Source: Muribaculaceae bacterium (lineage in GTDB: Bacteria > Bacteroidota > Bacteroidia > Bacteroidales > Muribaculaceae). Taken from it: a DNA stretch of 37,002 bases. The stretch is from positions 1 through 37,002 of the forward strand of contig JAIDDJ010000008.1 in assembly GCA_029055345.1 (NCBI GenBank), read 5' to 3'. The notes under the pieces were generated by a model, which did no database searches, was not told the origin of the DNA, and saw only the letters and a program-made list of their open reading frames with translations. The position numbers and the translations under genes are program-made. Below, in pieces: positions 6,481-31,702 of this stretch. Each line of letters starts with the position of its first letter. Within the stretch, counting starts at the first letter, position 1.

Positions 6481-6498
6481 TATCCCGGTCTTTCCGAC

Positions 6499-6539: not shown

Positions 6540-6588
6540 GATATGTCAATTTTCGAAGATTTTTAATCTTGCCGTCAGATTTTTTGTG

Positions 6589-6620: not shown

Positions 6621-6647
6621 TAAGCTGATTTGAAGTAGAATATTGCA

Positions 6648-14744: not shown

Positions 14745-16505
14745 TTAATACCTGAATGATGACCCTCCTAAAAATTCCCGTAACAGCGATGTCGGCGGAA
14801 CCTCCGTTTCCGGTATCCGCTGGAAATAATGAAGGAATCGCTGAAGACGGTAGGCGGTCGTGTATTCCGGCTCATTATGAGCCACCTGACTTAGCAACGG
14901 CTCTACATATGGTTTCATTACAGCTATCTCGAACAGCAGACTCGAGTTGAACGTTGCATCCGCATTCTCCTGAAACGGAAATATCCATTTCTCCTCGCCC
15001 CGGCGCACACTCGGCCATCGCCGTATCGTTTCTGTCGGCGACGTCCCCCGGTACTTGTAATCACGCACAAGCCGACGCAAGAGCCGGTTGTCGGACGTCG
15101 ATATCCAGTTATGATTGTCTATCCGCAGTGAGGTCAGTGCCGATACATACATCTTGAATATCCGTTCTGTAGGGAGATTTGCTGTCAACTCCGGGTTCAA
15201 TCCATGTATTCCCTCTATTATCAGAACCTCATCGGATGCAAGACTCAAGGGCCTCTCCCGCTCTACCCGCTGACCCAACTCAAAACTATAGGTCGGCAGA
15301 TTTATGGTTTCTCCCCGAAGAAGTGCCCGCAAATCGCTCTGCAACCGCTCCAGATCAAGCGCATACAGCGACTCATAATCATATTGCCCGTATTCGTCAA
15401 GAGGCGTATCCGTCCGGTTCACAAAATAATCATCCAATGATATCAGTTTCGGACGCATTAAGTTCGTCATCAATTGGATTGCGAGTCGCTTGGAGGTAGT
15501 GGTTTTCCCTGATGAAGAAGGCCCTGCTATCATAACTATCATCCCTCCGCCATCGCGCCTGCGGCTCACTATTTCATCCGAGATTCGCCCTATCAGCTTG
15601 TCATGCATCGCCTCGGCCACGTTTATCAGATCCGATGCCTCACCTCGAAGCACGGCCTCATTCAGCTCCCCTACCGAATCTACCCTTATCACCCTATTGA
15701 ACTTCAAATGCTCCCGGAAGGCTGCGAACATCTTCTCCTGCGTCAGCGGTTGCTGAGGCATATCCGGATTCGAAAGGTCCGGACCCAACAAGAGCATACC
15801 GTCTTGCCATGCCTGCAAATCAAATACTTCAAGCATGTCCGTCGAGGGCGCCAGCGGACCATAAAAGGAATCTGCAAGCCCGTCAAGCTCGTAATAGGAA
15901 GTGTATAGATCCGGAACTGTCTCAAGCAGGCGCACCTTGTTCCTCAACTTCTGACCCCGGAAAATTTCTACCACATCTTTCGTCAGTTTCTCATGACGCA
16001 CGAACGGCAGTTTCCTCTCAACGAGTTTCTTCATCTCCGCCTTTATCGTCCCGGTCATCGCTGCTCCGGGCTCTACCGACTCTCCTTCTGAATCAAACAA
16101 TCGGCAGAAAAGCCCTCGTGAAATGGAATGCTCTATGCGAAGTGTGAAATCCGAATACAAATCATGGACAGCTTTGTATAGCAACATACACATCGACCGG
16201 ACATAAACCTCTCGCCCCACTGAGCTCCACATATCCAGATATTCTATCTCTTTCGGACTGAAAACCCTGAAACCAAGATGCTCCGCCTTATTGTTAACCA
16301 ACGCACATATCGGCTCTTTATGCCACGCAATCACTGAAACCACCCGCTCCGTAGCCCGTGATTCACCACTATCTTCTTTCAGACTCAATTGTTGCTTTTG
16401 AAATTCTTCCGAACGATAAATCTCGCTGAGCGTCGAGCCCCCCTCAACCTGCAGATAGCGTTTCAGATTCTTGCTGTATATCTCTATGCCCGTATCCTTC
16501 TTCAT
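14745..16505 (-). CDS. Nucleoside kinase with threonyl-tRNA-synthetase-like N-terminus and uridine-kinase domain
   Basis: The C-terminal half is a P-loop uridine kinase/phosphoribulokinase-type domain with Walker A GPSSSGKTT (about residues 330-338), LISLDDYFVNR and LIIEGIHGLNP. The N-terminal half resembles TGS and threonyl-tRNA synthetase second additional domain sequences (IEHSISRGLFCRL), an architecture annotated as nucleoside kinase in Bacteroidetes and Firmicutes. The reading frame is open from a GTG at 16559, but the ATG at 16505 (MKKDTGIEIYS, 586 residues) is preceded by GAGGAG five bases upstream, a rare clear Shine-Dalgarno here, so I chose it. Substrate is not established. It is the first gene of the minus-strand run and diverges from the thioredoxin lipoprotein gene. 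Confidence 0.85.
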   Translation of the reverse strand: MKKDTGIEIYSKNLKRYLQVEGGSTLSEIYRSEEFQKQQLSLKEDSGESRATERVVSVIAWHKEPICALVNNKAEHLGFRVFSPKEIEYLDMWSSVGREVYVRSMCMLLYKAVHDLYSDFTLRIEHSISRGLFCRLFDSEGESVEPGAAMTGTIKAEMKKLVERKLPFVRHEKLTKDVVEIFRGQKLRNKVRLLETVPDLYTSYYELDGLADSFYGPLAPSTDMLEVFDLQAWQDGMLLLGPDLSNPDMPQQPLTQEKMFAAFREHLKFNRVIRVDSVGELNEAVLRGEASDLINVAEAMHDKLIGRISDEIVSRRRDGGGMIVMIAGPSSSGKTTTSKRLAIQLMTNLMRPKLISLDDYFVNRTDTPLDEYGQYDYESLYALDLERLQSDLRALLRGETINLPTYSFELGQRVERERPLSLASDEVLIIEGIHGLNPELTANLPTERIFKMYVSALTSLRIDNHNWISTSDNRLLRRLVRDYKYRGTSPTETIRRWPSVRRGEEKWIFPFQENADATFNSSLLFEIAVMKPYVEPLLSQVAHNEPEYTTAYRLQRFLHYFQRIPETEVPPTSLLREFLGGSSFRY

Positions 16506-16623
16506 TACTCTCCTCTTTTTCGATTCAACCCCGATATTCCCCGTTTTTTCTCTCCCCACTCATGTTGACCATTATTCCTATACCAATTCTAACCCCTACC
16601 CATTTTCCAATAATGGCCACCTA

Positions 16624-16810: not shown

Positions 16811-16884
16811 CAGTTTAGCTGCTCATTCTTTAAGGCCTAATGTGTTATTGAATGAAGCGCTATTGATATTTGATTATTGAATTT

Positions 16885-18006
16885 ATGAAGAAAACTTTCT
16901 TGTTCTCCGTCGTAGCGCTTATCCTCGCTTCGTGCGCGCATGACGATGGCTCCGTTTCCATCAAACTTCCCGATGGATTTAAGGATAAAACTCTCGTTGT
17001 CAGCCATGTGACTATAAAGAATATCTTTGAGGCCAAAAAGCAGGAAGACCTCAAGATAGTCTATGACACACTGACCGTAAATAATGGTGTGGCTACTCTC
17101 GCCCTTGACCCCGCAGGTCCGGCCAGATACGACATCATTCCGCCGGCGCCCGCTATGGCCGACCCCGATTTTTATGCCGCGCCCGACGACAATCTCGAAG
17201 TCGTTATCAAAAACTTCGACCCTCTCGATTTCACCGTGACCGGATCGGAACTTATGGACGACATGACGGAGTTCCTCGCTGTCACCCGGCCTATCCAACA
17301 GCAATACATCGTGAAAGTCAATGAAAACGAAAACATATCGGAAGACGAACTGAAATCTCTTATGGACAGCTACGACTCGGCTGTCAAGAAATTTGTCGCC
17401 GATCATCCCGAAAGCCCTGTTGTCCCGTTCGCTATCCTCGAATTGAGCGGTGATGACTTCAAAGTCGCTTTCGATAACCTTACTCCCGAAGCCCGTAAAT
17501 CAATGCTGATGCCTTACGCCGAACTTTACAATGACCAGGTTGTTCAGATGCAGGATGACCGGAAGGCCGAACAGGCTCGCAAGGACGAAGTGGCCTCCGG
17601 AACTATTTCTGCTCCTGATTTTTCACTGCCCGACCTCAATGGCAAAATGGTAAGCCTATCAGACTTCCGCGGCAAATGGGTTGTCCTCGACTTCTGGGGT
17701 AGCTGGTGCGGTTGGTGCATCAAGGGATTCCCGGCCCTCAAAGAAGCTTATAAGCAATATGGCGACCGGATTGTCGTCATCGGCATTGACTGTAACGAGT
17801 CGGAAGAGGAATGGAAAGCCGGAGTCAAAAAACACGACCTCCCATGGATAAACCTTTACAACGGAAATAACCGCGCTCTCTATGATGACTACCGTATCGA
17901 AGGCTTCCCTACAAAGGCGATTATTAATCCGGAAGGAAAACTCGTGGACCTAACCACCGGCGAAGACCCATCTTTCTTCACCCGCCTCAAATCGTTTGTT
18001 GAATAA
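16885..18006 (+). CDS. TlpA-like thioredoxin-fold lipoprotein with N-terminal DUF4369-like domain
   Basis: The 373-residue protein starts with a lipoprotein signal (LILASC, lipidated Cys17). Residues about 24-120 resemble DUF4369, common in Bacteroidetes periplasmic thiol oxidoreductases. The C-terminal domain (about 240-373) is thioredoxin-like with a CGWC active site (Cys275, Cys278) and the cis-Pro loop GFPTKAIIN. It is likely a membrane-anchored periplasmic disulfide reductase. An upstream in-frame TTG at 16870 adds five residues, but the ATG at 16885 starts the signal peptide properly. It is transcribed alone: a nested inverted repeat follows and separates it from deoC. Confidence 0.9.
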   Translation: MKKTFLFSVVALILASCAHDDGSVSIKLPDGFKDKTLVVSHVTIKNIFEAKKQEDLKIVYDTLTVNNGVATLALDPAGPARYDIIPPAPAMADPDFYAAPDDNLEVVIKNFDPLDFTVTGSELMDDMTEFLAVTRPIQQQYIVKVNENENISEDELKSLMDSYDSAVKKFVADHPESPVVPFAILELSGDDFKVAFDNLTPEARKSMLMPYAELYNDQVVQMQDDRKAEQARKDEVASGTISAPDFSLPDLNGKMVSLSDFRGKWVVLDFWGSWCGWCIKGFPALKEAYKQYGDRIVVIGIDCNESEEEWKAGVKKHDLPWINLYNGNNRALYDDYRIEGFPTKAIINPEGKLVDLTTGEDPSFFTRLKSFVE

Positions 18007-18285: not shown

Positions 18286-19164
18286 ATGGACAGATACCAG
18301 GACGCTGTCGCGCGTAGCCGCGTTGCTGTCGACGAAAACATCGTTAAGGCAGAAATCGCTAAAATCCTTGAAAAAACTTCCGAAAACGATAACCCTGAAG
18401 TCTATAAGAAAATCCTCGGCTCTATCGACCTTACTACCCTCAGCACCGAGGATAGCGAACTCAGCGTGGCCGCTTTCACCCGCCGCGTCAACGATTTCGA
18501 AAACGAATTCCCCCAGTATCCCCACGTCGCTGCTATCTGCGTTTACAGCAATTTCGCCGAAGTGGTGGATACAAACCTCGATGTCGAGGGAGTCGATGTC
18601 TGCGTAGTGGCTGCCGGATTCCCTTCAAGCCAGACTTTCCAGGCAGTTAAGGTCGCTGACGTCGCTATGGCTGTCGCAAGCGGCGCCGATGAAGTCGATA
18701 TCGTGCTTAATATCGGTATGTTCAACGATGGCAATTATGAAGACCTCTGCGATGAAATTATCGAGCTGAAACACACCGCAAAGGATGCCCGACTGAAAGT
18801 AATTCTCGAAACCGGAGCGCTCAAAACCCCCGAACGTATCCGCGCAGCTTCTATCCTGGCGATGTACAGCGATGCCGACTTCATAAAGACTTCTACCGGT
18901 AAAATTTATGAGGGAGCTTCTGTCGAGGCAGCCTACATTATGTGCCGGTGCATCAAGGAATATTATGAGGTGTCAGGCCGCAAGGTTGGCTTCAAGGCTG
19001 CCGGCGGAGTCCGCACCACACAGGAAGCTATCCAATATTATACTATCGTCAAGGAAATCCTCGGTGAGGATTGGCTCAATCCCGACTTATTCCGTATCGG
19101 CGCAAGCTCCCTTGCCAACAATATTCTGTCAAGCCTCGAAGGCAAATCTGTCAAATTCTTCTAA
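18286..19164 (+). CDS. deoC: Deoxyribose-phosphate aldolase
   Basis: DeoC cleaves 2-deoxyribose 5-phosphate to glyceraldehyde 3-phosphate and acetaldehyde, the last step of deoxynucleoside catabolism. The 292-residue protein shows the Schiff-base lysine (Lys201 in FIKTSTGK), the second conserved lysine (Lys237 in GFKAAGG) and the aspartate of DEVDIVLNIG (Asp138). It is about 30-40 residues longer than E. coli DeoC by an N-terminal extension, like other Bacteroidetes copies. Only 11 bases separate it from the secreted EEP nuclease/phosphatase gene, so the two are probably cotranscribed. That linkage is the main clue that the downstream locus handles DNA or deoxynucleotides. Confidence 0.96.
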   Translation: MDRYQDAVARSRVAVDENIVKAEIAKILEKTSENDNPEVYKKILGSIDLTTLSTEDSELSVAAFTRRVNDFENEFPQYPHVAAICVYSNFAEVVDTNLDVEGVDVCVVAAGFPSSQTFQAVKVADVAMAVASGADEVDIVLNIGMFNDGNYEDLCDEIIELKHTAKDARLKVILETGALKTPERIRAASILAMYSDADFIKTSTGKIYEGASVEAAYIMCRCIKEYYEVSGRKVGFKAAGGVRTTQEAIQYYTIVKEILGEDWLNPDLFRIGASSLANNILSSLEGKSVKFF

Positions 19165-19175
19165 CTCCTGCGGTT

Positions 19176-20267
19176 ATGAAAACAAAAAGATTGGCTCCCT
19201 TCGCGCTCTTTCTTCTTATTATTTTCGGCTTCATTCCCAAAGCGGCTGCCGATGATAACAAGAAGATAGCGACCTTCGGCGTAGCTTTCTACAACCTTGA
19301 GAACCTCTTCGACACCATCAACAACAATGGTAAATACGACTTGGAGTTCTCTCCTCAAGGATCTCACAAATGGGACGGCAAGAAATATTGGTCCAAAATC
19401 AAGAATCTTGCATACGCTATTTCTCAGATGACCACCAAGACTACTCCTTTCGGCCCCGCCGTTATCGGTGTCAGCGAAGTGGAAAACCGGTCGGTCCTCG
19501 AAGATCTCGTCAAGCACGAATTTATCGCCGACAGAAAGTATGAGATCGTTCACCACGACTCCCCCGATGCCCGCGGTGTCGATGTGAGCCTCCTCTATAA
19601 CCCCGACCTTTTCCGTGTGCTTAAAGTAGAAAACTATCCCCTCGAAATTCCCGAACTTCCCCGCTTCCGCACCCGCGACCAGATGTGTGTCATCGGCCTC
19701 CTCGGCAATAAGCAGACCGGTTATTCGAGAGTCGCCATTATTGTTAACCACTGGCCTTCTCGCAGGGGTGGTGAGCAAGAAAGCAGCTGGCTCCGTGAAG
19801 CGGCCGCCGCCCTTAATGCCAAAATAGCCGCCGAACTCCTCGAAAAATACCCCGATATTGGTATTATCACTATGGGGGATATGAACGATGACCCTTACAA
19901 TAAATCCGTTTCCCAAGTCCTGGGCGCCGTCAAGAACATTAAGGATGTTAAGGAGGGCGGTTTCTACAACCCTTTCTGGGAAAAACTCGATAAGGGCATT
20001 GGCTCTTACATATACCGCGGTGGCTGGAATCTCTTCGACCAGATTATTCTAAACTCAAACCTCGTCGACGGAAAGTCAGGCCTTAAATTCCTTACCGCCG
20101 AAGTCCTCAACAAACCGTTCCTTCTCCAGCAGGATGGTCAGTATAAAGGATATCCCCTCCGCACATTCTCTTCCGGAGCTTGGTCTAACGGATATTCAGA
20201 CCATCTCCCCACTGAAATATTCCTCGTAAGGGAAGTTACTCTTAAAGATTCCAACGAACAACAATAA
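19176..20267 (+). CDS. Secreted endonuclease/exonuclease/phosphatase (EEP) family enzyme
   Basis: The 363-residue protein begins with a signal peptide (FALFLLIIFGFIPKAAA) and has every catalytic block of the DNase I/EEP fold: FYNLENLFD (Asn40), GVSEVENR (Glu101), PDARGVDVS (Asp131, Arg133), VNHWPSR (Asn191, His192), MGDMNDDP (Asp235, Asn237) and a terminal SDHLP (Asp342, His343). It is expected to hydrolyse phosphodiesters or phosphomonoesters with a divalent metal in the periplasm. The exact substrate is not determined. The frame is open further upstream to 19071 inside deoC, but the ATG at 19176 gives the signal peptide. It is 11 bases from deoC and 7 bases from the TonB receptor gene. Confidence 0.92.
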   Translation: MKTKRLAPFALFLLIIFGFIPKAAADDNKKIATFGVAFYNLENLFDTINNNGKYDLEFSPQGSHKWDGKKYWSKIKNLAYAISQMTTKTTPFGPAVIGVSEVENRSVLEDLVKHEFIADRKYEIVHHDSPDARGVDVSLLYNPDLFRVLKVENYPLEIPELPRFRTRDQMCVIGLLGNKQTGYSRVAIIVNHWPSRRGGEQESSWLREAAAALNAKIAAELLEKYPDIGIITMGDMNDDPYNKSVSQVLGAVKNIKDVKEGGFYNPFWEKLDKGIGSYIYRGGWNLFDQIILNSNLVDGKSGLKFLTAEVLNKPFLLQQDGQYKGYPLRTFSSGAWSNGYSDHLPTEIFLVREVTLKDSNEQQ

Positions 20268-20274
20268 CCTTCAT

Positions 20275-23091
20275 ATGAAAAAACTTGCAACCATTCTCTT
20301 CTCCCTGATCGGTTTCTCTGTGGCGGCTCTCGCTCAGACCGGCATCAAAGGCACTGTCGTCGACGCTGCAACAGGTCGGCCTATCGCTGATGCCAATATT
20401 ATCCTTAAAGATCAGGCCATTTTTGTCGTAACCGGCACCGATGGCGTTTTCACAATCTCTAATGCTGCCCCCGGCTCTGACGTTATCGAAATTATCGCAT
20501 CCGGATTCGATGATAATTATACCGATATCGAACTGAAACGCGACTTGATGGTCAACATCGGCGAAATTCGACTCACTCCCTCGGGTTTCGTCGCTTCTGA
20601 ACTAAACTCCGATAATTTCCTCTTCGATGAGGAGGATATCCTCGAAGACGAAGGTCTCGGCCAATCTGTCGGCACGATCCAGGGTGCTACTGATGATATT
20701 TTCTATCAGGCTGCTAATTACAACTTCTCTGTGGTCCGATTCCGTATGAGGGGTCTCGACCAGAACTGGCAGACCGGATATGTCAACGGGTTCAACATGA
20801 ACGACGCTATGCGCGGCCGTTTCAATTTCTCCATGTTCGGAGGAATGACATCAAGCGCCTTCCGCAACCGAACCACTGAAATCGGTATGGCCGCCGCGCC
20901 TTACGGTTACGGCTCTATCGGGGGCTCCAACAATATCACCACTTACGCTTCAGAATATGCCCCCGGTTGGAAAGGCAACATCTCATATACGAATTCGAAC
21001 TATATGCTCCGCGCTATGCTCCAGTATTCTACCGGAGTCACTAAAAATGGATGGGCTTTCAGCGCCTCCATCATTGGCAGGTATGCTCCCGAAGGTGTAA
21101 TCGAAGGAACTTTCTACAACTCTTTCGGCTACTCTCTCTCGCTGGAAAAAATATTCAACGACCAACATTCGCTTAACCTGTCAACCTGGGGTGCACCCAC
21201 GCAGCGCGCCACCAATGCCGCTACTACTCAACAGGCTTACGACCTCGCCGGCTCTAACCTCTACAATCCGTCCTGGGGCTACCTCGACGGTAAGAAGAAA
21301 TCAAGCCGTATCGTCGAATCTTTCGACCCTTCGGTGATGCTCAACTGGATATGGAAACCCAAAATGGGCACCAAGCTCAACACCGGTATCGCTTTCCGTT
21401 CTAACAATTACAGCTCTTCTGCTCTGAACTGGTATCAGGCTGCCGACCCCAGACCCGATTATTACCGTAACCTCCCTTACTACTATACTCCTACTGCTGA
21501 CCCCGACCTGAATCCGGATCTTTTTGAAGCTCAGCTCGCTCAGCAGCAATTCGTCGCTGACTGGTGGAGCGGCGATCAGGCTCACCGCCAGATCGACTGG
21601 AACTCAATCTATCAGGTCAACCTCCTCAACCGTAACCAATACGACCGCGACCCGGAACTTGTCGGCCAGTCTACTTACATCCTCGAAAACCGTCATTCTA
21701 ACTTCAACGCCTATATGCTCAATTCATATCTTGACCATAGGCTCAACGATAAAATGACTCTTCAGGGTGGACTTAGCGTGAATTTTACCGACGCCCATTA
21801 TTATAAAACCATTCGCGATCTCCTCGGAGGCGAATTCTGGCGAGATATCGATAACTTCTCCGAACGCGACTTCGCCGGTGACGTCAATATAATGCAGAAC
21901 GACCTCGACAACCCCAACCGCAAGGTTTATGAAGGCGATAAGTTCGGTTATGACTATTTCATCCGCGACATCAACGGGCGCCTTTGGCTGCAGAACCAGA
22001 TCGTTACCCGCCATTGGAATGTTGACTACGCCGCTGAATTCAGTTATACTTCTTTCTGGCGTGACGGACAGATGCGCAACGGTCGCGCCCCGGGTGGCGT
22101 AGATGAGAGCGGAAATCCTCTCCCCATTTCTAAAGGCAAAGGTGATACTCACTCTTTCGCAAACTTCGGCCTCAAAGCAGGTGCCACATATAAACTCGAC
22201 GGACGAAACTATTTCACCGCTCATGTCGGTTACGGCACCCGCGCTCCGCTGCCTAACGATGCCTACGTTTCCCCGCGCACAAAGGACAACGCTGTCGGCG
22301 ACCTCAAATCGGAAAAATATCTCTCGGCCGATCTAAGCTATACTTGGAACTATCGTAATTTCCGTGGCTCAGTTACCGGCTTCTATACCCGCATATGGGA
22401 CGGCATGAAGCGCTCTGCTTTCTATGACTACGAACTCAACTCGTTCATGAACTACGCTATGAGTGGAATTTCTACTGAATTCAAGGGTATCGAACTCGGT
22501 TTGCAGTATAAAATACTCAGCAACCTCTCCGTTTCAGCTGTTGGAACAATCTCCAAATATCAGTATAAGAACGACCCCTGGGGTGTCAGAAGTATCGAAA
22601 ACGGTTCTAAGGATGATGTGGTCCGCAGAGTCTACCTCAAGAATTATTATGTCGGCGGCACACCCCAGCAGGCTGTGTCTTTTGCCGTTAACTACAACGT
22701 GTCAAGATGGTTCTTCGAAGTGAACGCGCAGTGGTTCGGCGACAACTACTACGAACTCTCACCGACTCGCCACGAAGAAATGCCCGGCCTCTGGAAGTAT
22801 TGCTTCACTGAGGAAGAATACGAACAGCGCCGCGATGAAATTACCCGCCAGGATCGCCTTAACAATGAATGGGTCGTCAACCTGTCTATCGGTAAGGTTA
22901 TCTATACGAAGTTTGGCTCGCTCAACTTCAATCTCTCAGTCAACAACCTCCTCAATAACCGTAACATCCAGACCTCCGGCTGGCAGGAAGGTAAGTTCGA
23001 CTATACAAACTATGACGTCAATAAATTCCAGAACAAAGTATGGTATGCTCAGGGCATCCGTGTTTTCCTGAATTGTGGAATCAGATTCTAA
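20275..23091 (+). CDS. TonB-dependent receptor with CarboxypepD_reg-like N-terminal domain
   Basis: The 938-residue protein has a signal peptide (cleavage after ALA near residue 20), then a CarboxypepD_reg-like beta-sandwich (about 22-105; GIKGTVVDAATGRPI), a plug region (about 125-235; RFRMRGLDQN, GGSNN) and a long beta-barrel rich in aromatic alternation ending in ...FLNCGIRF with a terminal Phe, as in outer membrane proteins. It is SusC-related, but no SusD-like gene follows: two other lipoproteins occupy that place. It is 7 bases after the EEP gene and 19 bases before the first lipoprotein. I infer that it imports DNA-derived products; the sequence alone does not show the ligand. Confidence 0.9.
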   Translation: MKKLATILFSLIGFSVAALAQTGIKGTVVDAATGRPIADANIILKDQAIFVVTGTDGVFTISNAAPGSDVIEIIASGFDDNYTDIELKRDLMVNIGEIRLTPSGFVASELNSDNFLFDEEDILEDEGLGQSVGTIQGATDDIFYQAANYNFSVVRFRMRGLDQNWQTGYVNGFNMNDAMRGRFNFSMFGGMTSSAFRNRTTEIGMAAAPYGYGSIGGSNNITTYASEYAPGWKGNISYTNSNYMLRAMLQYSTGVTKNGWAFSASIIGRYAPEGVIEGTFYNSFGYSLSLEKIFNDQHSLNLSTWGAPTQRATNAATTQQAYDLAGSNLYNPSWGYLDGKKKSSRIVESFDPSVMLNWIWKPKMGTKLNTGIAFRSNNYSSSALNWYQAADPRPDYYRNLPYYYTPTADPDLNPDLFEAQLAQQQFVADWWSGDQAHRQIDWNSIYQVNLLNRNQYDRDPELVGQSTYILENRHSNFNAYMLNSYLDHRLNDKMTLQGGLSVNFTDAHYYKTIRDLLGGEFWRDIDNFSERDFAGDVNIMQNDLDNPNRKVYEGDKFGYDYFIRDINGRLWLQNQIVTRHWNVDYAAEFSYTSFWRDGQMRNGRAPGGVDESGNPLPISKGKGDTHSFANFGLKAGATYKLDGRNYFTAHVGYGTRAPLPNDAYVSPRTKDNAVGDLKSEKYLSADLSYTWNYRNFRGSVTGFYTRIWDGMKRSAFYDYELNSFMNYAMSGISTEFKGIELGLQYKILSNLSVSAVGTISKYQYKNDPWGVRSIENGSKDDVVRRVYLKNYYVGGTPQQAVSFAVNYNVSRWFFEVNAQWFGDNYYELSPTRHEEMPGLWKYCFTEEEYEQRRDEITRQDRLNNEWVVNLSIGKVIYTKFGSLNFNLSVNNLLNNRNIQTSGWQEGKFDYTNYDVNKFQNKVWYAQGIRVFLNCGIRF

Positions 23092-23110
23092 CCCTTTCAA
23101 GCATTTGGCA

Positions 23111-24679
23111 ATGAAAAAGAATTTTTTATATATCGTGGCTCTGCTTGCAGGGTGCCTCGTCTCTCTATCATCTTGTAATGATGAATTTTCCCAGCCCCCG
23201 GTAATAATCCCTGAAGGCGGTATCGGAACCGGCGAATGGGACTCTCCTATGACCGCTTACCAATGTCTCATCGGTTCGGTCAATGAGAATATTGCTCAAC
23301 CTTGGGTCAAAGGCTATATCGTCGGCGTTATAAATACTTCCGTCGGTAATGTCCTGAATGCCCGCTCCGCCCAATTCGAAGGCCCGTTCAATATTAACAC
23401 CAACATTCTTCTGGCTATGGATCCCAATGAAACCGATTGGGAAAAATGCGCTTCCGTCCAGCTCCCGAGTGGTAGTGTCCGCGATGCTATAAATCTTTCC
23501 CAGAATCCCGGAAACCTCGGTAAATTGGTCTGCCTCAAAGGCACTCTCGGTGAAAAATATTGTGGTGTCTATGGCCTCAAAGCTGTCAATGATTTCAATT
23601 GGGGTGAACTGGGAAATAAGCCTCTTGAGCTCAACCCCATTGACGGACCGTTCCTCGAAACTTTCGATGCCACTACCGACTTCGCTCCATATGAAAAGCA
23701 AGGATGGAAACGTGTCATGATTCTCGGTGGCCTCGACGGATGGTATATTAAGAGCTTTGACAAGGAGAACAACAATTATGTCTCCTGTAGCGCTTACCTC
23801 GGCTCTGAAACCGGAGGCCCCTATGAAAACTGGCTGATTACTCCTGCTATTGACCTGAATAAACTCACCGACAAAACCCTCCAGTTCCTCTCGCAGGCTG
23901 CTTATGCCACAGACTCTGAATGCTCGCTTGAAGTATTCGTGATGACTACCGATAATCCGGCAACTTCTCAGAATGTCAAGATTGACCCGATTCTGGCTAT
24001 TCCTCCGCAAAGCGGCTACAGCACTTGGGTTGACTCCGGTATCATCGATCTTTCTCAATTCAACGGCACAATCTATATCGGCTGGAGATATTACTCTGAA
24101 AAGGGCGGCAAAAACAATTCCGCAACTTACTGTATTGATGACATCAATGTCGGAAATGCTTCTGAACCCCTTAATCCCCCTGTAATCCCGGAGGATACTT
24201 CCATTTATTCCGGCCTCGAGGAGGATGCTGCTTCTATCGACTGGAAATTCGACAATATTCTCCTCCCCGCAGGTCTCAACGAAATTTGGTCCTGGAAGTC
24301 TTACAACGACAAGCATTATCTCAACGCCTCTGCTTTTCCCAAGAAGGAAAATTCTGAAGCTATCGCTTACTCTCCGGTTATTTCTCTTGCTGGAGTCTCT
24401 AAAGCCACAGTTTCTTTCATGCATGCTGCAAGTTTCCAGACTACTATCCTGCAGCTCGGAAAATTCGTGGTTAGAGAGGCCGGCAATGCCGAATGGACGG
24501 AATTCGATATTCCTGTATGGCCGCCGGCCGGAAAGTGGACTTTCACTTCTTCCGGCAACATAGACCTGTCAGCTTTCGATGGTAAGGATATTGAAATCGG
24601 TTTCAAATATGCTTCTTCACCCGAAGGTGCGGACACTTGGGAAATAAGAAACGTCAAAGTGGAAGGCAACCGCGATTGA
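23111..24679 (+). CDS. Predicted surface lipoprotein with OB-like (DUF6359-type) domain and two jelly-roll modules
   Basis: The 522-residue protein has a lipoprotein signal (LSLSSC, Cys22) followed by NDEF, acidic residues that fit the Bacteroidetes lipoprotein surface-export signal. Residues about 40-155 match a compact OB-like pattern (WVKGYIVG, NILLAMDPNE, SVQLPSGSVRDAIN, LVCLKGTLGEKYCG) that I associate with DUF6359. A choice-of-anchor-J-like jelly roll follows (about 165-350; ENWLITPAIDL, IYIGWRYYSE, YCIDDI). The last 150 residues form a module nearly duplicated at the end of the second endonuclease I (GADTWEIRNV). The frame opens at 23075 within the receptor gene, but the signal peptide starts at 23111. 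It may bind substrate for the receptor; that is inference. Confidence 0.8.
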   Translation: MKKNFLYIVALLAGCLVSLSSCNDEFSQPPVIIPEGGIGTGEWDSPMTAYQCLIGSVNENIAQPWVKGYIVGVINTSVGNVLNARSAQFEGPFNINTNILLAMDPNETDWEKCASVQLPSGSVRDAINLSQNPGNLGKLVCLKGTLGEKYCGVYGLKAVNDFNWGELGNKPLELNPIDGPFLETFDATTDFAPYEKQGWKRVMILGGLDGWYIKSFDKENNNYVSCSAYLGSETGGPYENWLITPAIDLNKLTDKTLQFLSQAAYATDSECSLEVFVMTTDNPATSQNVKIDPILAIPPQSGYSTWVDSGIIDLSQFNGTIYIGWRYYSEKGGKNNSATYCIDDINVGNASEPLNPPVIPEDTSIYSGLEEDAASIDWKFDNILLPAGLNEIWSWKSYNDKHYLNASAFPKKENSEAIAYSPVISLAGVSKATVSFMHAASFQTTILQLGKFVVREAGNAEWTEFDIPVWPPAGKWTFTSSGNIDLSAFDGKDIEIGFKYASSPEGADTWEIRNVKVEGNRD

Positions 24680-24728
24680 TGTTGGCAATCCTATAAAGTT
24701 GCTCTAATCTTTTAAATAATTGAATCTT

Positions 24729-26405
24729 ATGAAATTTTCAGCATATTCTTATCTGGCCGCGGCTTTGCTCATTATTCCCGCTGTAACTGCTTGCCAGGCC
24801 GACATGGATAATCCCGGACTCCAGACACCCGTAGCCTCGATTAATCCTAATACTACTATTCTCGAACTCAAACAGAAGTTCGAGAATACCACCGAACTTA
24901 TCGGCACCAAGGATAATGGCGAACACTATATCATCCATGGCCGCGTGGTCTCAAGCGATGCCTCCGGAAATATCTATAATTCGCTCGTTATTCAGGACGA
25001 AACCGCTGCGCTCACTTTCTCGATCCGTCAGGGAAGTATGTACAATGAATATCGACTCGGACAGGATATGGTCGTGGATATGACCGGCCTCAATATCGGT
25101 TACTATCGAGGGCTGCAGCAGGTGGGCACACCCGACAAGCCATATAATGGTGAACCTCAGCTCGGTTTCATGGCTTACGACTACTGGCTCGCTCACGCTC
25201 AATGCAATGGCCTCCCGAAACCTGAATATAAGAACGTTACCCTCAATTCACAATATCCCGATGATGAATACTACTGCATCGTATTCAACAGTTTCGATGA
25301 ATTGACTCAAGGCACTCTCCCCGAACTCCAGAGCCAGTTCGTGGAATTCCGCAACGTCTCTTTCCAAATTAAGGAAGGCGAGGAAACCTACGCTCCTTAT
25401 CAGGAAAGCGTCAACCGCACCCTCGTTGACGCTAACGGCCAGACTCTCACTGTCCGTAATTCCGGATATTCTAACTTCTATAATACTCCCCTCCCCAAGG
25501 GTCGTGGTAATGTCCGCGGTATTCTCCAATATTACTCCGGAGACAATCCCTGGCAGATTATTCTCCGTGACCTCAGCGACGTCATGATCACCACCAAGGG
25601 CGAAGAAGACGACCCGTTCTCTGTGACCGACCTCTCAAACCCCGACTTCTCCGGTCTCTCCGGCTGGACAAAGGGCTACGTAGTGGGCTCGGTTAAGGCC
25701 GGTGTCGCTGAAGTGACTTCTCCGGAGGATGTGATTTTCGGCCCGGATGCAGAAATGGATAATAATGTCCTTATTGCCGATAATCCCGATGAAACCGACC
25801 TCGCTAAGTGCGCCCTCGTCCAGCTCCCGCAGATGACTCAGCTGCGCTTCTGGATCAATCTCCTCGATAATCCCGAAGTTTATAAGAAAGAACTCCTTGT
25901 AAAGGGTGAAATCGGCACAGACCTCGGCATACCGGCTGTTCTGGATTCACGCGGAGGATTCGATGATTTCAAACTCGATGGAAAAACGCTGAGCGGTGGT
26001 AGCGATGCCCCCGACCCCGCCGGAACCGGTACTGAAGCTGACCCATATAACGTGGCCTATGTAATGCAGTCCACAGCCGATCAGTCCGATGTGTGGGTTA
26101 TCGGTTACGTCGCCGGTTATGTCGCTGATGGTAACTTCGCTGATGGCGCCGAGTTCTCAGCCAACGAGGTCCCCAATTCGACCAATTACCTTAACTCTAC
26201 CAATATCATCCTCTCTGCGGTCGCTCCTATGAAGTGCGGTGTCGCAAATTCTGTGCCCGCCCAGCTCACTGCCGCTTCAAGACCAACTCTCGGACTTCGC
26301 ATTAACCCCGCTGTTTATGGTAAGCAGGTTAAGGTGAAATGCCGTATCGCCGATTACCTCGGCTCACGCGGTATTCGCCAGATTTCCGAAGTTGTGGTGC
26401 TCTAA
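24729..26405 (+). CDS. Predicted surface lipoprotein with DUF5689-like and two DUF6359-like OB-type domains
   Basis: The 558-residue protein has a lipoprotein signal (PAVTAC, Cys22) followed by QADMD, again acidic. Residues about 35-285 resemble DUF5689 (IHGRVVSSDASGNIYN, LVIQDETAAL), an OB-fold-like unit. Two further OB-like repeats of the type seen in the preceding lipoprotein follow (about 295-425, with WTKGYVVGSV and VQLPQMTQLRFWINL; about 430-558, with VWVIGYVAGYV and NIILSA). OB folds commonly bind nucleic acid or sugar, so a DNA-holding role beside the receptor is plausible but unproven. A TTG at 24720 could start three residues earlier; ATG at 24729 is preferred. Gap to the previous gene is 49 bases. 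Confidence 0.78.
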   Translation: MKFSAYSYLAAALLIIPAVTACQADMDNPGLQTPVASINPNTTILELKQKFENTTELIGTKDNGEHYIIHGRVVSSDASGNIYNSLVIQDETAALTFSIRQGSMYNEYRLGQDMVVDMTGLNIGYYRGLQQVGTPDKPYNGEPQLGFMAYDYWLAHAQCNGLPKPEYKNVTLNSQYPDDEYYCIVFNSFDELTQGTLPELQSQFVEFRNVSFQIKEGEETYAPYQESVNRTLVDANGQTLTVRNSGYSNFYNTPLPKGRGNVRGILQYYSGDNPWQIILRDLSDVMITTKGEEDDPFSVTDLSNPDFSGLSGWTKGYVVGSVKAGVAEVTSPEDVIFGPDAEMDNNVLIADNPDETDLAKCALVQLPQMTQLRFWINLLDNPEVYKKELLVKGEIGTDLGIPAVLDSRGGFDDFKLDGKTLSGGSDAPDPAGTGTEADPYNVAYVMQSTADQSDVWVIGYVAGYVADGNFADGAEFSANEVPNSTNYLNSTNIILSAVAPMKCGVANSVPAQLTAASRPTLGLRINPAVYGKQVKVKCRIADYLGSRGIRQISEVVVL

Positions 26406-26442
26406 GACTTTATTTCACTCCTCGTTATTCTGACTTTTTCTG

Positions 26443-28152
26443 ATGTTGAAAAGATTCTTTATATCTATATTGATGATGGCCGCCGCGCATTCGGCGGCCA
26501 TCTCAGCCTTTCCCGAAGGCTATTACGACTGTATGGACGGCCTAAAAAAAGAAGACCTGAAGGCCGCTGCCGGTCAATGCGTTCGCGCCCACTCTCAGTT
26601 GGTTTACTATGATCTCCCTAATTACTGGATTTACTCAGATGTTTACCCCGAACTGGTCAACGGGTGCAAGCGGTGGTGGGATATGTATTCCGACAATCTG
26701 TATCTTATTCAGCCCGGATTGACCGGTAAGCAAAGCTTCTCCGCTAATAGGATGCAACGCGAACATGCGGTCCCTAAATCTTGGTGGAAGGCTAACGGTA
26801 GTGTCGAATACACCCCGGCTTACTCCGATATGTGGAATCTTTACCCCAGCGATGCCGATGCGAATCAGGCTAAACTCAATTATCCCTTTGGCGAGACAAG
26901 ATCAATTTCGTTCGACAACGGAATCTCTAAAGTCGGTCTCCCGAAATCCGGATATGGCGGTGGCGCTTCTCACGTGTTCGAACCGGCTGATGAATACAAA
27001 GGCGACTTCGCCCGCGCAATTTTCTATATGGCGACGGTTTATGACGAACTCCCCTGGGCTTATACATATATGTTCGTCAGGAATTCTTATCCATCCCTCC
27101 TTCCTTGGGCTTACAATATGCTTCTCCAATGGGCCAGACTCGACCCCGTCAGTCAAAAGGAAATTGACCGCAACGATTATGTCCAACAGTTTCAGGGAAA
27201 CCGAAATCCTTTCATAGATTTCCCGGAACTCGCAGAATATATCTGGGGACAACGCACCTCGCAGGTGTTCAAATTATCCGAACAAGGTGGCTCCGGTGTA
27301 AATCCTCCTATCACCGGGGATCCGGAAATCTCTGCCCCCGTCAATGGCGAAGCTCTCGATTTCGGACCTGTCGCTGCCGGTTATTCGGTCAACCGCGCTC
27401 TCCAGATCAAGGGTAAAAACATGACAAGCCCCCTCTCGCTCCGTGTAGTGGGTGCCGACAAAAACTTATTTACTCCGGAAGTAACTTCCATTCCGGCCGA
27501 TATAATTAACCAGAACGGGGGATTCCTCCTGAATATCAAATATAATCCCCTTTCTACCGGAAACCACGAAGCCAAGCTAACCCTCTACGATGGAGGCATT
27601 GACGGAAGCATCGCCGTTACTCTCACCGGGCAGTCGGTTGATGTTCCCGCTCTCGGTTCGGTCCTCGCATTGCCGGCTACCGATATCACCGATAATTCCT
27701 ATACAGCAAATTGGAAAGCTGCTCCGACGCAGGCTGACTACTATACGCTGACGCGCGTGAGATATAACCCCGATGCCGAGGAAATCGATACTTACGAGAC
27801 AAGCGAGTTGTATTACAATATTTCCGACCGTAATCCGCTCATTCCCGAAAGCTACTACGTCACCTATAATTATCTCGGTGTCGAATCCCCCCTCTCCAAT
27901 TCTATTTACATTGCCGCTTCCGGTATTAATGACCCCCGATCTGATTCCCCGTTCCATGTATTTCCTTCAGTTGGCGGCGTTATCATCAGCAGGGCGCCCG
28001 CCGAAGCAGGTACGCTGTTCATTATGGACATATGCGGTCGGATTATCGATGTGATCATTGACCCGGAGGATAACTCTCTGATTCCTCTTTCCCCCGGAAT
28101 TTATATTATGCGTATCGACAACTCCGCTCCCCTCAAGGTTATTGTCCGATGA
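26443..28152 (+). CDS. Secreted endonuclease I (first of three), with Ig-like, FN3-like and sorting modules
   Basis: Endonuclease I (EndA/Vvn/Bsn family) is a secreted non-specific DNase. The 569-residue protein has a signal peptide (cleavage near ISA-F23). Its core has the catalytic pair Glu107-His108 in REHAVPKSWW and the metal-ligand Asn141 in PSDADAN. In the family's DLHHL-type segment this copy reads DMWNL, unlike its two neighbours. After the nuclease (to about residue 285) come an Ig-like choice-of-anchor-D/ASPM-type domain (about 295-400), an FN3-like domain (about 405-490) and a C-terminal module ending in PGIYIMRIDN...KVIVR that resembles a type A T9SS sorting domain. It lies 37 bases after the second lipoprotein. 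Confidence 0.88.
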   Translation: MLKRFFISILMMAAAHSAAISAFPEGYYDCMDGLKKEDLKAAAGQCVRAHSQLVYYDLPNYWIYSDVYPELVNGCKRWWDMYSDNLYLIQPGLTGKQSFSANRMQREHAVPKSWWKANGSVEYTPAYSDMWNLYPSDADANQAKLNYPFGETRSISFDNGISKVGLPKSGYGGGASHVFEPADEYKGDFARAIFYMATVYDELPWAYTYMFVRNSYPSLLPWAYNMLLQWARLDPVSQKEIDRNDYVQQFQGNRNPFIDFPELAEYIWGQRTSQVFKLSEQGGSGVNPPITGDPEISAPVNGEALDFGPVAAGYSVNRALQIKGKNMTSPLSLRVVGADKNLFTPEVTSIPADIINQNGGFLLNIKYNPLSTGNHEAKLTLYDGGIDGSIAVTLTGQSVDVPALGSVLALPATDITDNSYTANWKAAPTQADYYTLTRVRYNPDAEEIDTYETSELYYNISDRNPLIPESYYVTYNYLGVESPLSNSIYIAASGINDPRSDSPFHVFPSVGGVIISRAPAEAGTLFIMDICGRIIDVIIDPEDNSLIPLSPGIYIMRIDNSAPLKVIVR

Positions 28153-28190
28153 CACTATGACCCGCTCTTTCCATTATTTTTAAATATTCT

Positions 28191-28221
28191 TTTGTCGGAT
28201 AGAAATTAATTACTAATTTTG
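28191..28221 (+). promoter_or_regulatory. Internal promoter of the second endonuclease I gene
   Basis: TTTG at 28191-28194, 19 bases, then TAATTTTG at 28214-28221 is a complete match to the Bacteroidetes housekeeping promoter. Predicted start near 28228, about 25 bases before the ATG. It lies in the longest gap within the locus (99 bases). Confidence 0.8.
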
Positions 28222-28251
28222 CCGACAACGATTGAATCAAACCGAACATCT

Positions 28252-29832
28252 ATGAAATCTTTTTTCTGCTCTTTTTATACTTACTGTGCAGCAATTACCG
28301 GATTGCTCTCATTTTCTTCGGGAGCCTATGCATCTTATCCGGATGGATATTATGATTCTTTGAACGGTAAATGCGGCCGCCAGCTGATGCTCGCAATAAA
28401 GGCCGCCGTCGGCAACCATCATGTTATCTCTTATGGAACCGACACATGGAACGCCTTTAAAGATACGGATGTCCGCCGAATAAATGGTACCGACTACTGG
28501 TGGGATATGTATAGCAACGAACTCGTTCAGGTTTCTTCCGGTCATCCCGGCCTTAATATCGAGCATTCCGTAGCTAACTCCTGGTGGGGCAAAACCAAAA
28601 ATGACGCCTACAAGGATATTGTCCACTTGAACCCGAGTAACGCCGATGCTAATAGCCGTAAAGGAAACTATCCTCTCGCCGAACTCGCTTCCGTGACCTG
28701 GACCAACGGCGTCACTTCCATCGGTAAGGCTAAGTCCGGTCAGGGTGGAAATGCTTCCGTATGTTACGAACCTTGTGATGAATACAAAGGCGATTTTGCC
28801 CGCGTTTTCATGTATATGTTCACTATTTATGATGACATCTCATGGAAAGACAATACCGCTTGGATGTACGACACTTCTTCTTCACTCATGTTCAAACCCT
28901 GGGCAAGCTCCCTGCTACTCCGTTGGAGCGCGGATGATCCGGTGAGTGATAAGGAGCGCAACCGAAACGACGGTATTTACCGTAACCAGAACAACCGGAA
29001 TCCTTTCATCGACCTCCCTGACCTCGCCGAACATATCTGGGGAGCAAAAGCATCTGTGCCTTACAGCGTCAACGGCGGTGGCTCTGACCCCGGTACCGAT
29101 CCCGGAACAGACCCCGGAACAGACCCCGACACGCAGCAACTTTCTTACAGATGGCTTAAGGAATCAGACTCCAACCAGGGTGACTGGACGTTCGAGAATA
29201 TCGTTATGCCTTCTGCCGCCTCTTATATTTGGAGCTGGAAACAGTATAATGGCCTCGGCTATCTCAACAGTAGCGCATACATCAACAACACCCCATATCA
29301 GGCGGAAGCTTACGCTTGGAGCCCTACAGTTTCTTTTGCAAACGTCAAGACGGCTACTCTTTCTTTCTCGCATGCCGCAAAGTTCCAGACAACGCTGCGC
29401 GATAAGTGTAAACTCGTTGTGAAGGACGCTGACTCCGGCAATATCTCTGAAATCGATTTGCCCTCTTGGCCCACCGCAGGCTCTTGGACTTTTGCCGATT
29501 GTAAGAATATCGACCTTTCACGCTTCGCAGGTAAAAACGTTAAAATTGGATTCAAATATGCTTCTTCTTCGCAAGGAGCCGATACTTGGGAAATACGCAA
29601 CGTCAACCTCGACCTGACTCGTGTCACTTCTTCTATTTTCATGCCTCTTTCTCCTGAAGAAGAAGACGACAGTTTCCTCGTTGAAGTATGGGGCCGTAAT
29701 ATTATCGTTCCCGACGGTGCTGATATCTTTGACCTCAATGGCCGCAAATTTGACGGTAATGACCTGAATCCGGGCATCTACATCGTGGTAAAACCCTCGT
29801 TCCGCAAAGCCGTCAAAGTAATCATCAAATAA
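28252..29832 (+). CDS. Secreted endonuclease I (second), with PGTD linker, jelly-roll and sorting modules
   Basis: The 526-residue protein has a signal peptide (cleavage near AYA-S28) and the endonuclease I core with Glu104-His105 in IEHSVANSWW, His125 in DIVHLNPS and Asn134 in NADAN. A short linker made of PGTD repeats (encoded at 29086-29133) leads to a beta-sandwich (about 300-460) that closely matches the C-terminus of the first lipoprotein (EIWSW/YIWSW, HAA.FQTT, IGFKYASS, GADTWEIRN). The C-terminal 60 residues (VWGRNIIVPDGADIFDLNG, PGIYIVV, KVIIK) look like a T9SS type A sorting domain. The frame opens 11 codons earlier at 28219, but 28252 gives the signal peptide and follows the promoter. 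Confidence 0.9.
   Translation: MKSFFCSFYTYCAAITGLLSFSSGAYASYPDGYYDSLNGKCGRQLMLAIKAAVGNHHVISYGTDTWNAFKDTDVRRINGTDYWWDMYSNELVQVSSGHPGLNIEHSVANSWWGKTKNDAYKDIVHLNPSNADANSRKGNYPLAELASVTWTNGVTSIGKAKSGQGGNASVCYEPCDEYKGDFARVFMYMFTIYDDISWKDNTAWMYDTSSSLMFKPWASSLLLRWSADDPVSDKERNRNDGIYRNQNNRNPFIDLPDLAEHIWGAKASVPYSVNGGGSDPGTDPGTDPGTDPDTQQLSYRWLKESDSNQGDWTFENIVMPSAASYIWSWKQYNGLGYLNSSAYINNTPYQAEAYAWSPTVSFANVKTATLSFSHAAKFQTTLRDKCKLVVKDADSGNISEIDLPSWPTAGSWTFADCKNIDLSRFAGKNVKIGFKYASSSQGADTWEIRNVNLDLTRVTSSIFMPLSPEEEDDSFLVEVWGRNIIVPDGADIFDLNGRKFDGNDLNPGIYIVVKPSFRKAVKVIIK
29086..29133 (+). repeat. 12-bp coding tandem repeat (PGTD linker)
   Basis: Four adjacent 12-base units (starting at 29086, 29098, 29110 and 29122) encode Asp-Pro-Gly-Thr three times and a diverged Asp-Pro-Asp-Thr. 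The units differ by a few bases; the second and third are nearly identical. They form a flexible interdomain linker and could expand or contract by slippage without a frameshift. Confidence 0.85.
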
Positions 29833-29846
29833 TCAAATCCACCAGG

Positions 29847-29907
29847 TTTCCCAAGATTCCCAAAAATCCCAAAATTCCCAAGATTCCCAAATCTCCAAGA
29901 ATTTCCC
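29847..29907. repeat. Short imperfect tandem array between endonucleases 2 and 3
   Basis: About six to seven imperfect copies of an 8-10-base unit based on TTCCCAAGA fill most of the 85-base gap after the second endonuclease gene. The purine/pyrimidine strand asymmetry is strong (C/T with A on plus). No promoter match or T-tract terminator is seen in the gap. Confidence 0.8.
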
Positions 29908-29917
29908 TTTTACTCCT

Positions 29918-31702
29918 ATGAAAATTCTATTATCTTCCATAACTATCTTGTGCGCCTGCGCTCTGGCTTTCGCCGATATCCCCGATGGATATTACCAATC
30001 TCTCGACGGAAAGCAGGGTGCGCAGCTCAAGCAGGCTGTCCGACAACTCGCCGATGGCCACTCTGTCATTACGTACAGCACTAAAACTTGGCCCGCTTTC
30101 GAAAAAACCGATGTCCGAACAATTCGCGGCAAACAGGTGTGGTGGGATATGTATAGCAATAATATTGTCTATCTTCCCGAACACGCGGCCCTGAATATCG
30201 AGCATTCAGTAGCTAACTCATGGTGGGGTGGCAAAAAAGGCAGCACTGAGGCTTATGCCGACCTGTTTCACCTCAATCCGAGCGACCAGAACGCCAATAA
30301 TAAGAAAGGAAACAACCCTCCCGGCGATGTGACCGACCCCAGGATCCTGAATAACGGTATCCTGAAAATCGGAACCCCCGCTGACGGACAAGGCGGTGGT
30401 GCCTCTTCTGTTTTCGAACCCGCCGATGAATATAAAGGCGATTTCGCAAGAGCCTACTTCTACGTTTTTTCCACTTACGATAACCTAAGCTGGAAATCGG
30501 AATATGCCTACGTGTATCAGGACAATGGCGATCTTCAGCCATGGGCTGTGGAATTGCTTCTCCGCTGGAATAGTCTCGACCCGGTCGATTCAAAGGAAAT
30601 GGCTCGTAATGAAGCTGTCTTCGATCTCCAGAACAACCGTAACCCTTTCATCGACTATCCGCAACTTGCCGATTACATATGGGGACAAAAAGCCTCTTCC
30701 GTATTCTCTCTCTCCGATGAATCTCCCTCTCAGCCTGCCGACCGTCCCGCTCCCCCGGAATTCGATGATGTCCGCCTTACCGGGGTTAATACATATGCCG
30801 GCAGATGGTGGGACGGCACCGAAATCCCGGTGGCTCACTCTGACGGAAATCTGTTCATAAGCATAGATGGAGCCCCTTACGCCCCGGGCGATAAAATTAC
30901 CCTTGACCCCGCTGCTGATGCCGACGAGTCTCACTCGTTCGCTGCTTATACGGAAGCGGATGTCAATGGCGCGACTCTCCGAAGCCCTATCGCCCGACTC
31001 ACTATGACCGCCCGCGACCCGCTAATTGCCGATTACTCGGCCGCCCGTTGGCAATGCGTCACTAAAGCTGAACCTCTGAACCTTTCCGAAGGCCCGTTCA
31101 TTATCCTTGCCGCCCCGACGCTCCAGATTATGAGCACCGAAGGAGGAACTGCTTCTAACGCTTTCATGGAATGCGCCGGTTTTGTCGAATTCGATGATGA
31201 ACGCGTTGTCGAACTCCCTATTGACGCCGCTCTCGTGAGATTCGAACCTGTGTCAAACGGTAAATACCGCCTCATTGTCCGCGATATCTACGATCGATTC
31301 ATCGGTTCATGGAATGCTACCGCTAAAAATAAAATGAAACTCGAGCAGACCGCATACACTCCGGGAATCGGTGCTATCGCCGATGATGGCACTTTCTCTT
31401 TCACCTTCGATCAGTTCGGTTCGCTTCAATATAATGCTTCTCAACCCAGATTCCTTAATTATGAGACCAACCAGAAGCCTGTATATCTCTACCGGTTTAA
31501 GGACCTCAATGGGGGCTGGTCAGGGATTGATTCCGTTTACTCCGACTCCGAATGGGGTGTCGGTATAGATGGCAATAACATTATCGTTGACTCCGAAACC
31601 CGAGTCTTCGACCTTTCGGGGCGCATGGTCAATGGTAATCATCTCCCCAAGGGCGTATATATTGTCGTCAGCCCCAAGGGTTCTTATAAGGTCGCTCTCT
31701 GA
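29918..31702 (+). CDS. Secreted endonuclease I (third), with distinct beta-rich C-terminal region and sorting module
   Basis: The 594-residue protein has a signal peptide (cleavage after AFA near residue 19) and the endonuclease I core with Glu95-His96 in IEHSVANSWW, His118 in DLFHLNPSD and Asn127 in QNAN. Its core is closest to the second copy. After about residue 270 it carries a chitobiase-like beta segment (about 280-370) and a further beta-rich region (about 380-530; YRLIVRDIYDRF, SLQYNASQPRF, KPVYLYRF) not shared with the other two. The last 55 residues (IDGNNIIVDSETRVFDLSG, KGVYIVVSPKGSYKVAL) resemble a T9SS type A sorting domain. The gene follows the short tandem array and precedes korA by 56 bases. 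Confidence 0.88.
   Translation: MKILLSSITILCACALAFADIPDGYYQSLDGKQGAQLKQAVRQLADGHSVITYSTKTWPAFEKTDVRTIRGKQVWWDMYSNNIVYLPEHAALNIEHSVANSWWGGKKGSTEAYADLFHLNPSDQNANNKKGNNPPGDVTDPRILNNGILKIGTPADGQGGGASSVFEPADEYKGDFARAYFYVFSTYDNLSWKSEYAYVYQDNGDLQPWAVELLLRWNSLDPVDSKEMARNEAVFDLQNNRNPFIDYPQLADYIWGQKASSVFSLSDESPSQPADRPAPPEFDDVRLTGVNTYAGRWWDGTEIPVAHSDGNLFISIDGAPYAPGDKITLDPAADADESHSFAAYTEADVNGATLRSPIARLTMTARDPLIADYSAARWQCVTKAEPLNLSEGPFIILAAPTLQIMSTEGGTASNAFMECAGFVEFDDERVVELPIDAALVRFEPVSNGKYRLIVRDIYDRFIGSWNATAKNKMKLEQTAYTPGIGAIADDGTFSFTFDQFGSLQYNASQPRFLNYETNQKPVYLYRFKDLNGGWSGIDSVYSDSEWGVGIDGNNIIVDSETRVFDLSGRMVNGNHLPKGVYIVVSPKGSYKVAL

Follow-up and report, generated by a model that had tools for sequence, protein, structure and literature searches.

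What would a member of the Muribaculaceae carry across its outer membrane with a receptor encoded among predicted secreted nucleases? The question is raised by a 37,002-nucleotide stretch of contig JAIDDJ010000008.1 of the Muribaculaceae bacterium assembly GCA_029055345.1 (the whole stretch analyzed, hereafter the window), in which seven plus-strand genes at 19176-31702 form one block, comprising an EEP-family enzyme, a predicted TonB-type receptor, an accessory lipoprotein, a DUF5689 lipoprotein, and three endonuclease I family proteins, with deoC as a neighbor only (Table 1). A first-pass annotation had taken deoC and these seven genes together as a polysaccharide-utilization-like locus whose polymer is DNA; DNA as the probable target stood up to our analysis, but the membership of deoC, the SusC/SusD-type organization, and the view that the core was undescribed did not. 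Reading function from the genes and from predicted structural models, we think it reasonably likely that the block is a module for DNA uptake at the outer membrane which has probably come loose from transformation and works together with the nucleases in DNA scavenging.

Homology to transformation genes of Riemerella anatipestifer

In R. anatipestifer, a bacterium of ducks, the adjacent genes RA0C_RS04915 and RA0C_RS04920 are reported as essential for natural transformation on the basis of a transposon screen and unmarked deletions, the former encoding a pfam13620 protein of predicted outer-membrane location and the latter one combining DUF5689 with DUF5017 (Huang et al. 2021, PMC8459023). That paper presents DNA passage across the outer membrane by this pair as the authors' model and not as something measured, and posits a DNA-processing protein without naming it. 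It makes two statements on distribution: in one, the four novel genes are distributed across the Bacteroidetes phylum; in the other, homologues of RS04915 occur only in Flavobacteriaceae. Riemerella tonBA and tonBB mutants are described as having lowered transformation, and the authors link tonBB, not tonBA, to iron (PMC8383284).

The core that had been considered undescribed is this Riemerella transformation pair. The window receptor aligns with its counterpart in the Riemerella locus (L126) along its full length, at 27% identity over 978 columns (E 3e-99), the DUF5689 lipoprotein at 31% over 300 columns (E 1e-25), and the EEP enzyme at 37% over 302 columns (E 8e-60). The features of a Riemerella-type uptake module are found in the window: a full-length receptor homologue, a DUF5689 homologue nearby, and, as the third part that we propose, an EEP gene beside the receptor. 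L126 itself runs through RecA, DinB, three succinate dehydrogenase genes, ComEC, a 145-amino-acid protein, a carboxyl transferase, and the EEP gene, after which the receptor and DUF5689 genes follow on the opposite strand. This order matches the tags RS04870 (RecA), RS04895 (ComEC), RS04915, and RS04920, so that by position the EEP gene would be RA0C_RS04910; it is not among the mutants in the tables of PMC8459023. The receptor of another R. anatipestifer record (L133) is 93% identical to that of L126, and the EEP, receptor, and DUF5689 domains of a further locus (L129) are the same as in L126.

The two arrangements are alike in receptor family, in DUF5689 family, in having the two genes as neighbors, and in the adjoining EEP gene. 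They differ in several respects: the EEP gene is divergent in Riemerella but in line in the window, where the accessory lipoprotein gene also sits between the receptor and DUF5689 lipoprotein genes; the Riemerella DUF5689 lipoprotein ends in DUF5017, whereas that of the window carries two DUF6359 domains; the named Riemerella locus has no endonuclease I gene within 12 kb, whereas three follow in the window; ComEC lies two genes from the EEP gene in Riemerella but on another contig in the window genome; and a helix-hairpin-helix protein is present in Riemerella, with none found in the window genus. We regard EEP, receptor, and DUF5689 lipoprotein as a Riemerella-type outer-membrane uptake module that in the window is enlarged by one further lipoprotein and by three proteins of the endonuclease I family.

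The window genome also encodes a 913-amino-acid receptor paralogue (L132, G000 C52:15000-30000, at 4667-7405), followed by a 679-amino-acid protein with a lipoprotein-like start. In a 31-row receptor tree this paralogue pairs with one from another genome of the class (L095) on a long supported branch, and the deep fork is unsupported.

The DUF5689 lipoprotein was modeled as tandem OB folds (pLDDT 91), and its first structural matches are DNA-binding proteins. The receptor has no Pfam plug match, and its predicted model shows the plug-and-barrel fold of a TonB-dependent transporter, resembling siderophore and B12 transporters in structure comparison. Such a likeness would suit a receptor that imports a cargo other than DNA, such as a metal or vitamin, with the nucleases as chance neighbors, as would the lack of any match for the receptor among solved structures searched by sequence (the EEP enzyme likewise had none, and endonuclease I only weak ones). 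We consider this explanation highly improbable, given the transformation phenotype of the homologues in Riemerella, the conserved company of EEP and DUF5689 genes, and the presence of the receptor shared with EEP and endonuclease I in the genus, both described below.

Conservation of the gene neighborhood

Flanks were read for one locus in each of 30 related genomes (30 of the 31 strong-receptor genomes besides that of the window, G045 being left out), in a class set of 20 loci belonging to different families of the same class (20 of 23 strong-receptor class genomes, with G085, G202, and G214 left out), and in 64 named loci retrieved with the Riemerella receptor. An EEP gene was found directly upstream of the receptor in 26/30 related loci by script and in one more (L035) by further search, the remaining misses being two contig ends and L062, which is without EEP. 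DUF5689 follows the receptor in 28/30, the exceptions being one contig end and, again, L062. In the class set, EEP is upstream and divergent in 15/20 loci and DUF5689 follows in 19/20; in the named set each was found in 61/64, two of the EEP misses being contig ends. Across the Bacteroidia loci examined, the EEP gene is thus conserved as a third part next to the receptor and DUF5689 genes. This joint occurrence in most of these loci, with the homology to the Riemerella transformation proteins, supports DNA as the probable target.

The outer members of the proposed locus are distributed differently. Genes for deoC within 3 kb upstream occur in 19/30 related loci, and endonuclease I genes within 12 kb downstream in 15/30, in both cases only in same-genus loci (22 of the 30); neither was found in any of the 20 class or 64 named loci. 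Endonuclease I-like matches in L056, L095, and L111 were discarded, the L056 protein lacking the catalytic part in the alignment and a profile of the catalytic domain having no match over the 12 kb that follow the receptor in the class set. In the Bacteroidia loci examined, the co-occurrence asked for among the eight families was kept in most cases for EEP, receptor, and DUF5689, but the adjacency of deoC and endonuclease I was confined to the genus.

At the scale of the phylum, 60/158 genomes have some receptor match at E ≤1e-20, and 23/158, including that of the window, reach at least 600 bits, with G167 added in two pieces; all 24 strong-receptor genomes of this set are of the same class or are the window's own. 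Of the genomes in the family to which Chryseobacterium and Riemerella belong, 191/197 have the receptor at E ≤1e-100. Among homologues that carry names, some are labeled Candidatus Amulumruptor caecigallinarius, the named relative in the genus of the window, or Muribaculaceae bacterium.

Presence and absence within the genus

The receptor is present in 23 of 37 genus genomes (in G019 partially, at a contig end); the other 14 gave nothing stronger than weak matches of the kind expected from paralogues. EEP was found in 22/23 receptor-positive versus 0/14 receptor-negative genomes and endonuclease I in 23/23 versus 3/14, compared with 21/23 versus 11/14 for deoC (one of the 11 a partial gene, in G003), 18/23 versus 11/14 for ComEC, and 21/23 versus 14/14 for DprA. 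Fisher p-values for this co-occurrence ignore kinship, and the kinship-aware test rests on a deoC gene tree of 31 genomes, not a genome tree, on which the receptor needs six state changes, three of them forced by supported branches. Among 24 genomes from other families of the order, where G037, G044, and G045 carry the receptor in part or in pieces, endonuclease I occurs in 7/9 with the receptor versus 3/15 without.

The surroundings of deoC were read in 10 of the 14 receptor-negative genomes (in G008 and G022 the gene was found by tblastn). In G011 and G005 the block is absent and porA starts ~310 and ~185 bases after deoC, respectively; in the window the block separates the two genes by 12.6 kb. 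G011 and G005 group as sisters in the deoC tree, so a single event probably accounts for their empty site. In G013, a close relative of the two, something else comes after deoC, and the other seven genomes are rearranged there. We rejected deoC as a block member, against the first-pass annotation, because it is present with or without the block, adjoins it in no examined locus outside the genus, and is retained at the site where the block is missing.

As a separate observation, endonuclease I genes lie beside porA without a receptor in G008 (L199) and G003 (L211), as if left by partial loss of the block.

Transformation or scavenging

If natural transformation still works in the genus and the block supplies its outer-membrane step, the block would bring in DNA for recombination, as in Riemerella, and the nucleases would trim it. 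The receptor and DUF5689 homologues are essential in Riemerella and the window genome has ComEC and DprA, all of which fits; in the genus, however, neither ComEC nor DprA tracks the receptor, and transforming DNA would tend to be destroyed by three secreted nucleases. As markers, ComEC and DprA were set aside as uninformative, being present nearly everywhere.

A further objection comes from RA0C_RS02645, a helix-hairpin-helix protein reported as essential for Riemerella transformation (PMC8459023). We searched 56 genomes with a profile for a helix-hairpin-helix protein that carries three repeats and, at its N terminus, a hydrophobic segment; we equate this protein with RS02645 by description and genome position, not by tag. 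The genomes comprised 37 from the genus, 7 from elsewhere in the order (whose choice was guided in part by the presence or absence of short-frame PF12836 matches), and 12 from the class. The profile matches Riemerella genomes at E 1.7e-38 (G268), 3.9e-39 (G282), and 1.6e-40 (G218), and the protein was found in 11/12 class genomes in total and in 3/7 other-order genomes, but in 0/37 genus genomes, that of the window being only ~83% complete. Genus matches at E ≤0.01 fall in frames of 546-754 amino acids, which we take to be Tex-like, and a weak one (0.0027, in G021) lies mostly outside the repeats. PF12836 in frames of 200-450 amino acids gave the same picture, with 0/37 genus versus 20/24 other-order genomes. 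Since this feature was looked for and not found, we do not file the block as a complete transformation machine, and a working transformation system seems to us an unlikely explanation.

Two further genomes, G057 (L057, with only a 113-amino-acid fragment-like match) and G241 (L130, whose examined stretch shows no EEP gene), also keep the receptor with no full helix-hairpin-helix protein found, and are possible independent cases of detachment from transformation.

We lean toward DNA scavenging, because the helix-hairpin-helix protein is missing in the genus while the 23 genus members that bear the outer-membrane module all have endonuclease I; nutritional use of the block is accordingly likely. 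In the mechanism we envisage, the DUF5689 lipoprotein, predicted to sit at the cell surface and modeled as tandem OB folds, would bind DNA, as its fold matches and the Riemerella knock-out suggest. The secreted endonuclease I proteins would, judging from their family, cut long DNA, and the EEP enzyme would process it further. The TonB-type receptor may then move DNA or large fragments over the outer membrane with TonB energy, by analogy with RS04915 and the tonB mutants of Riemerella. In the periplasm, DNA without a Riemerella-type helix-hairpin-helix holder would probably be degraded, yielding phosphate, nitrogen, or nucleosides.

Several observations weigh against scavenging by a detached module. 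Nuclease genes within 12 kb of the receptor are a same-genus trait among the loci examined, and even there G016, G017, and G027, genus members with contig room, carry endonuclease I elsewhere. Endonuclease I also stays in three genus genomes without the receptor. The receptor-negative genomes are larger (median 2.95 versus 2.3 Mb), and therefore other differences may be involved in the co-occurrence; the supported independent pairs on the deoC tree that agree (EEP 3/3, endonuclease I 2/3) are too few and not significant. The receptor and DUF5689 lipoprotein are distant from their Riemerella homologues at the identities given above, and Flavobacterium johnsoniae is reported to have all the homologues and yet not to be transformable in the authors' hands (PMC8459023). 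OB folds bind other ligands too, single OB-domain matches including aminoacyl-tRNA synthetases, and whole-chain TM-scores of the lipoprotein model are low. Another protein could stand in for the helix-hairpin-helix protein, and with ComEC in 52/61 and DprA in 57/61 relatives, including the window genome (G000 C38, C56), the genus may still be capable of transformation.

Comparison with other systems

SusC/SusD loci resemble the block in combining a TonB-type receptor that has a carboxypeptidase-like N domain with lipoproteins and secreted depolymerases. They differ from it in their SusD family proteins and carbohydrate enzymes, neither of which the block contains: domain scans of the block proteins gave no SusD family match, and searches with both lipoproteins to E ≤1 returned DUF6359, DUF5689, and weak unrelated matches, so that the block is not a SusC/SusD locus. 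In Vibrio cholerae, Dns and Xds act on extracellular DNA as an endonuclease I family protein and an EEP-type extracellular nuclease, the same families as in the block; unlike the block, to our knowledge, this pair comes with no TonB-type receptor or DUF5689 lipoprotein.

Closer in taxonomy is BT3563 of Bacteroides thetaiotaomicron, an extracellular DNase in Bacteroidales that is reported to degrade extracellular DNA and to be a biofilm factor (PMC11078008), and which we liken to the block by description only. By this example, the nucleases might serve to clear extracellular DNA from biofilms or host DNA nets, with the receptor only salvaging oligonucleotides or nucleotides, and the secretion-type starts of the block's nuclease families would suit such a role. 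Clearance is unlikely as the reason for the core, because the core occurs in the 20 class and 64 named loci with no endonuclease I within 12 kb downstream (the rest of those genomes being unsearched), and we hold this explanation for the block as a whole to be quite doubtful. Bacteroidota with secreted nucleases are described as DNA degraders of sediments and sludge, with no such receptor system in the available portions of those reports (PMC8289736, PMC11495043), and no Bacteroidales version of the block was among the literature matches listed, mostly open-access.

Block layout and neighboring genes

The window genome (G000) is 2.03 Mb in 78 contigs. Open reading frame and domain checks bore out the eight plus-strand genes at 18286-31702 and the families assigned to them, and the intergenic gaps from deoC to the third endonuclease I gene are 11, 7, 19, 49, 37, 99, and 85 bases, in keeping with the 7-49 bases claimed for the first six genes. 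The arrangement is more than chance, because the same gene order recurs in related genomes. On the same strand, porA/porB begin at 31759, 56 bases past the last nuclease gene.

Table 1. Coordinates and features of the block genes and the flanking deoC
Gene or product	Position	Strand	Features
deoC	18286..19164	+	TIGR00126 above its cut-off; flanking gene, judged outside the block
EEP-family enzyme, predicted nuclease	19176..20267	+	PF19580, 357 bits; signal-peptide-like start
Receptor, outer-membrane protein of predicted TonB-dependent-transporter fold	20275..23091	+	CarboxypepD_reg; RA0C_RS04915 homologue
Accessory lipoprotein	23111..24679	+	One DUF6359 and choice-of-anchor J domains; lipobox LSSC, then acidic residues
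DUF5689 lipoprotein, also two DUF6359	24729..26405	+	Lipobox VTAC; modeled tandem OB folds; DUF5689 part homologous to RA0C_RS04920
Endonuclease I family protein 1	26443..28152	+	PF04231; signal-peptide-like start; type IX secretion system (T9SS)-like C-terminal tail below cut-off
Endonuclease I family protein 2	28252..29832	+	PF04231 and choice-of-anchor J domain
Endonuclease I family protein 3	29918..31702	+	PF04231

The EEP frame can start at ATG (19176) or GTG (19173), the listed open reading frame opening further upstream at TTG, and the motifs EVENR, NHWPSRRGG, GDMNDDP, and SDHLP are seen in the enzyme. The three endonuclease I proteins score 133-149 bits for PF04231 and are the only ones found in the window genome at its estimated ~83% completeness. 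TIGR04183 (T9SS C-terminal sorting) matched 3/9 members scanned at E ≤5 (best E 9.2e-4), the nine including L056, which is no endonuclease I; endonuclease I protein 1 gave a weak 14.9 bits against a cut-off of 23. The T9SS component SprA was found in the window genome.

Counts of sigma-70 promoters (26 versus 18.8 in shuffles) and terminators (18 versus 17.2) in the window gave no clear signal. What we take to be a Bacteroidetes-type promoter pattern has two exact matches in the window versus 0.63 expected, a number reached by 12/100 shuffles. The matches immediately precede the second endonuclease I gene (28191-28221) and tRNA-Pro (34650-34681). From the position of the first, the last two nuclease genes may have a promoter of their own.

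Upstream of deoC on the same strand lies a thioredoxin/TlpA-like protein with a lipoprotein-type start (16870-18006), and also near deoC is a long uridine-kinase-like protein with a PRK domain in its C-terminal half (14745-16559), possibly of nucleoside metabolism.

Implications for DNA uptake in Bacteroidia

Here, we document in Bacteroidales a receptor family known from Riemerella transformation, and the conserved EEP gene beside it is a candidate for the DNA-processing protein of the published Riemerella model. The arrangement suggests TonB-energized passage of DNA without pili. We tentatively propose, at somewhat less than even confidence, that a pilus-free outer-membrane DNA importer, in which a TonB-type receptor is combined with an OB-fold surface lipoprotein and a dedicated EEP nuclease, is common to Bacteroidia, and that in this genus it became detached from transformation when the periplasmic DNA-holding protein was lost, was joined to secreted endonucleases, and serves the eating of DNA. 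A long-standing question is whether the DNA that bacteria take up serves them as a source of genes or as food, and the block is a natural experiment on it: the outer-membrane part that is needed for transformation in one order occurs in this genus with nucleases added, and the periplasmic part was not found there.

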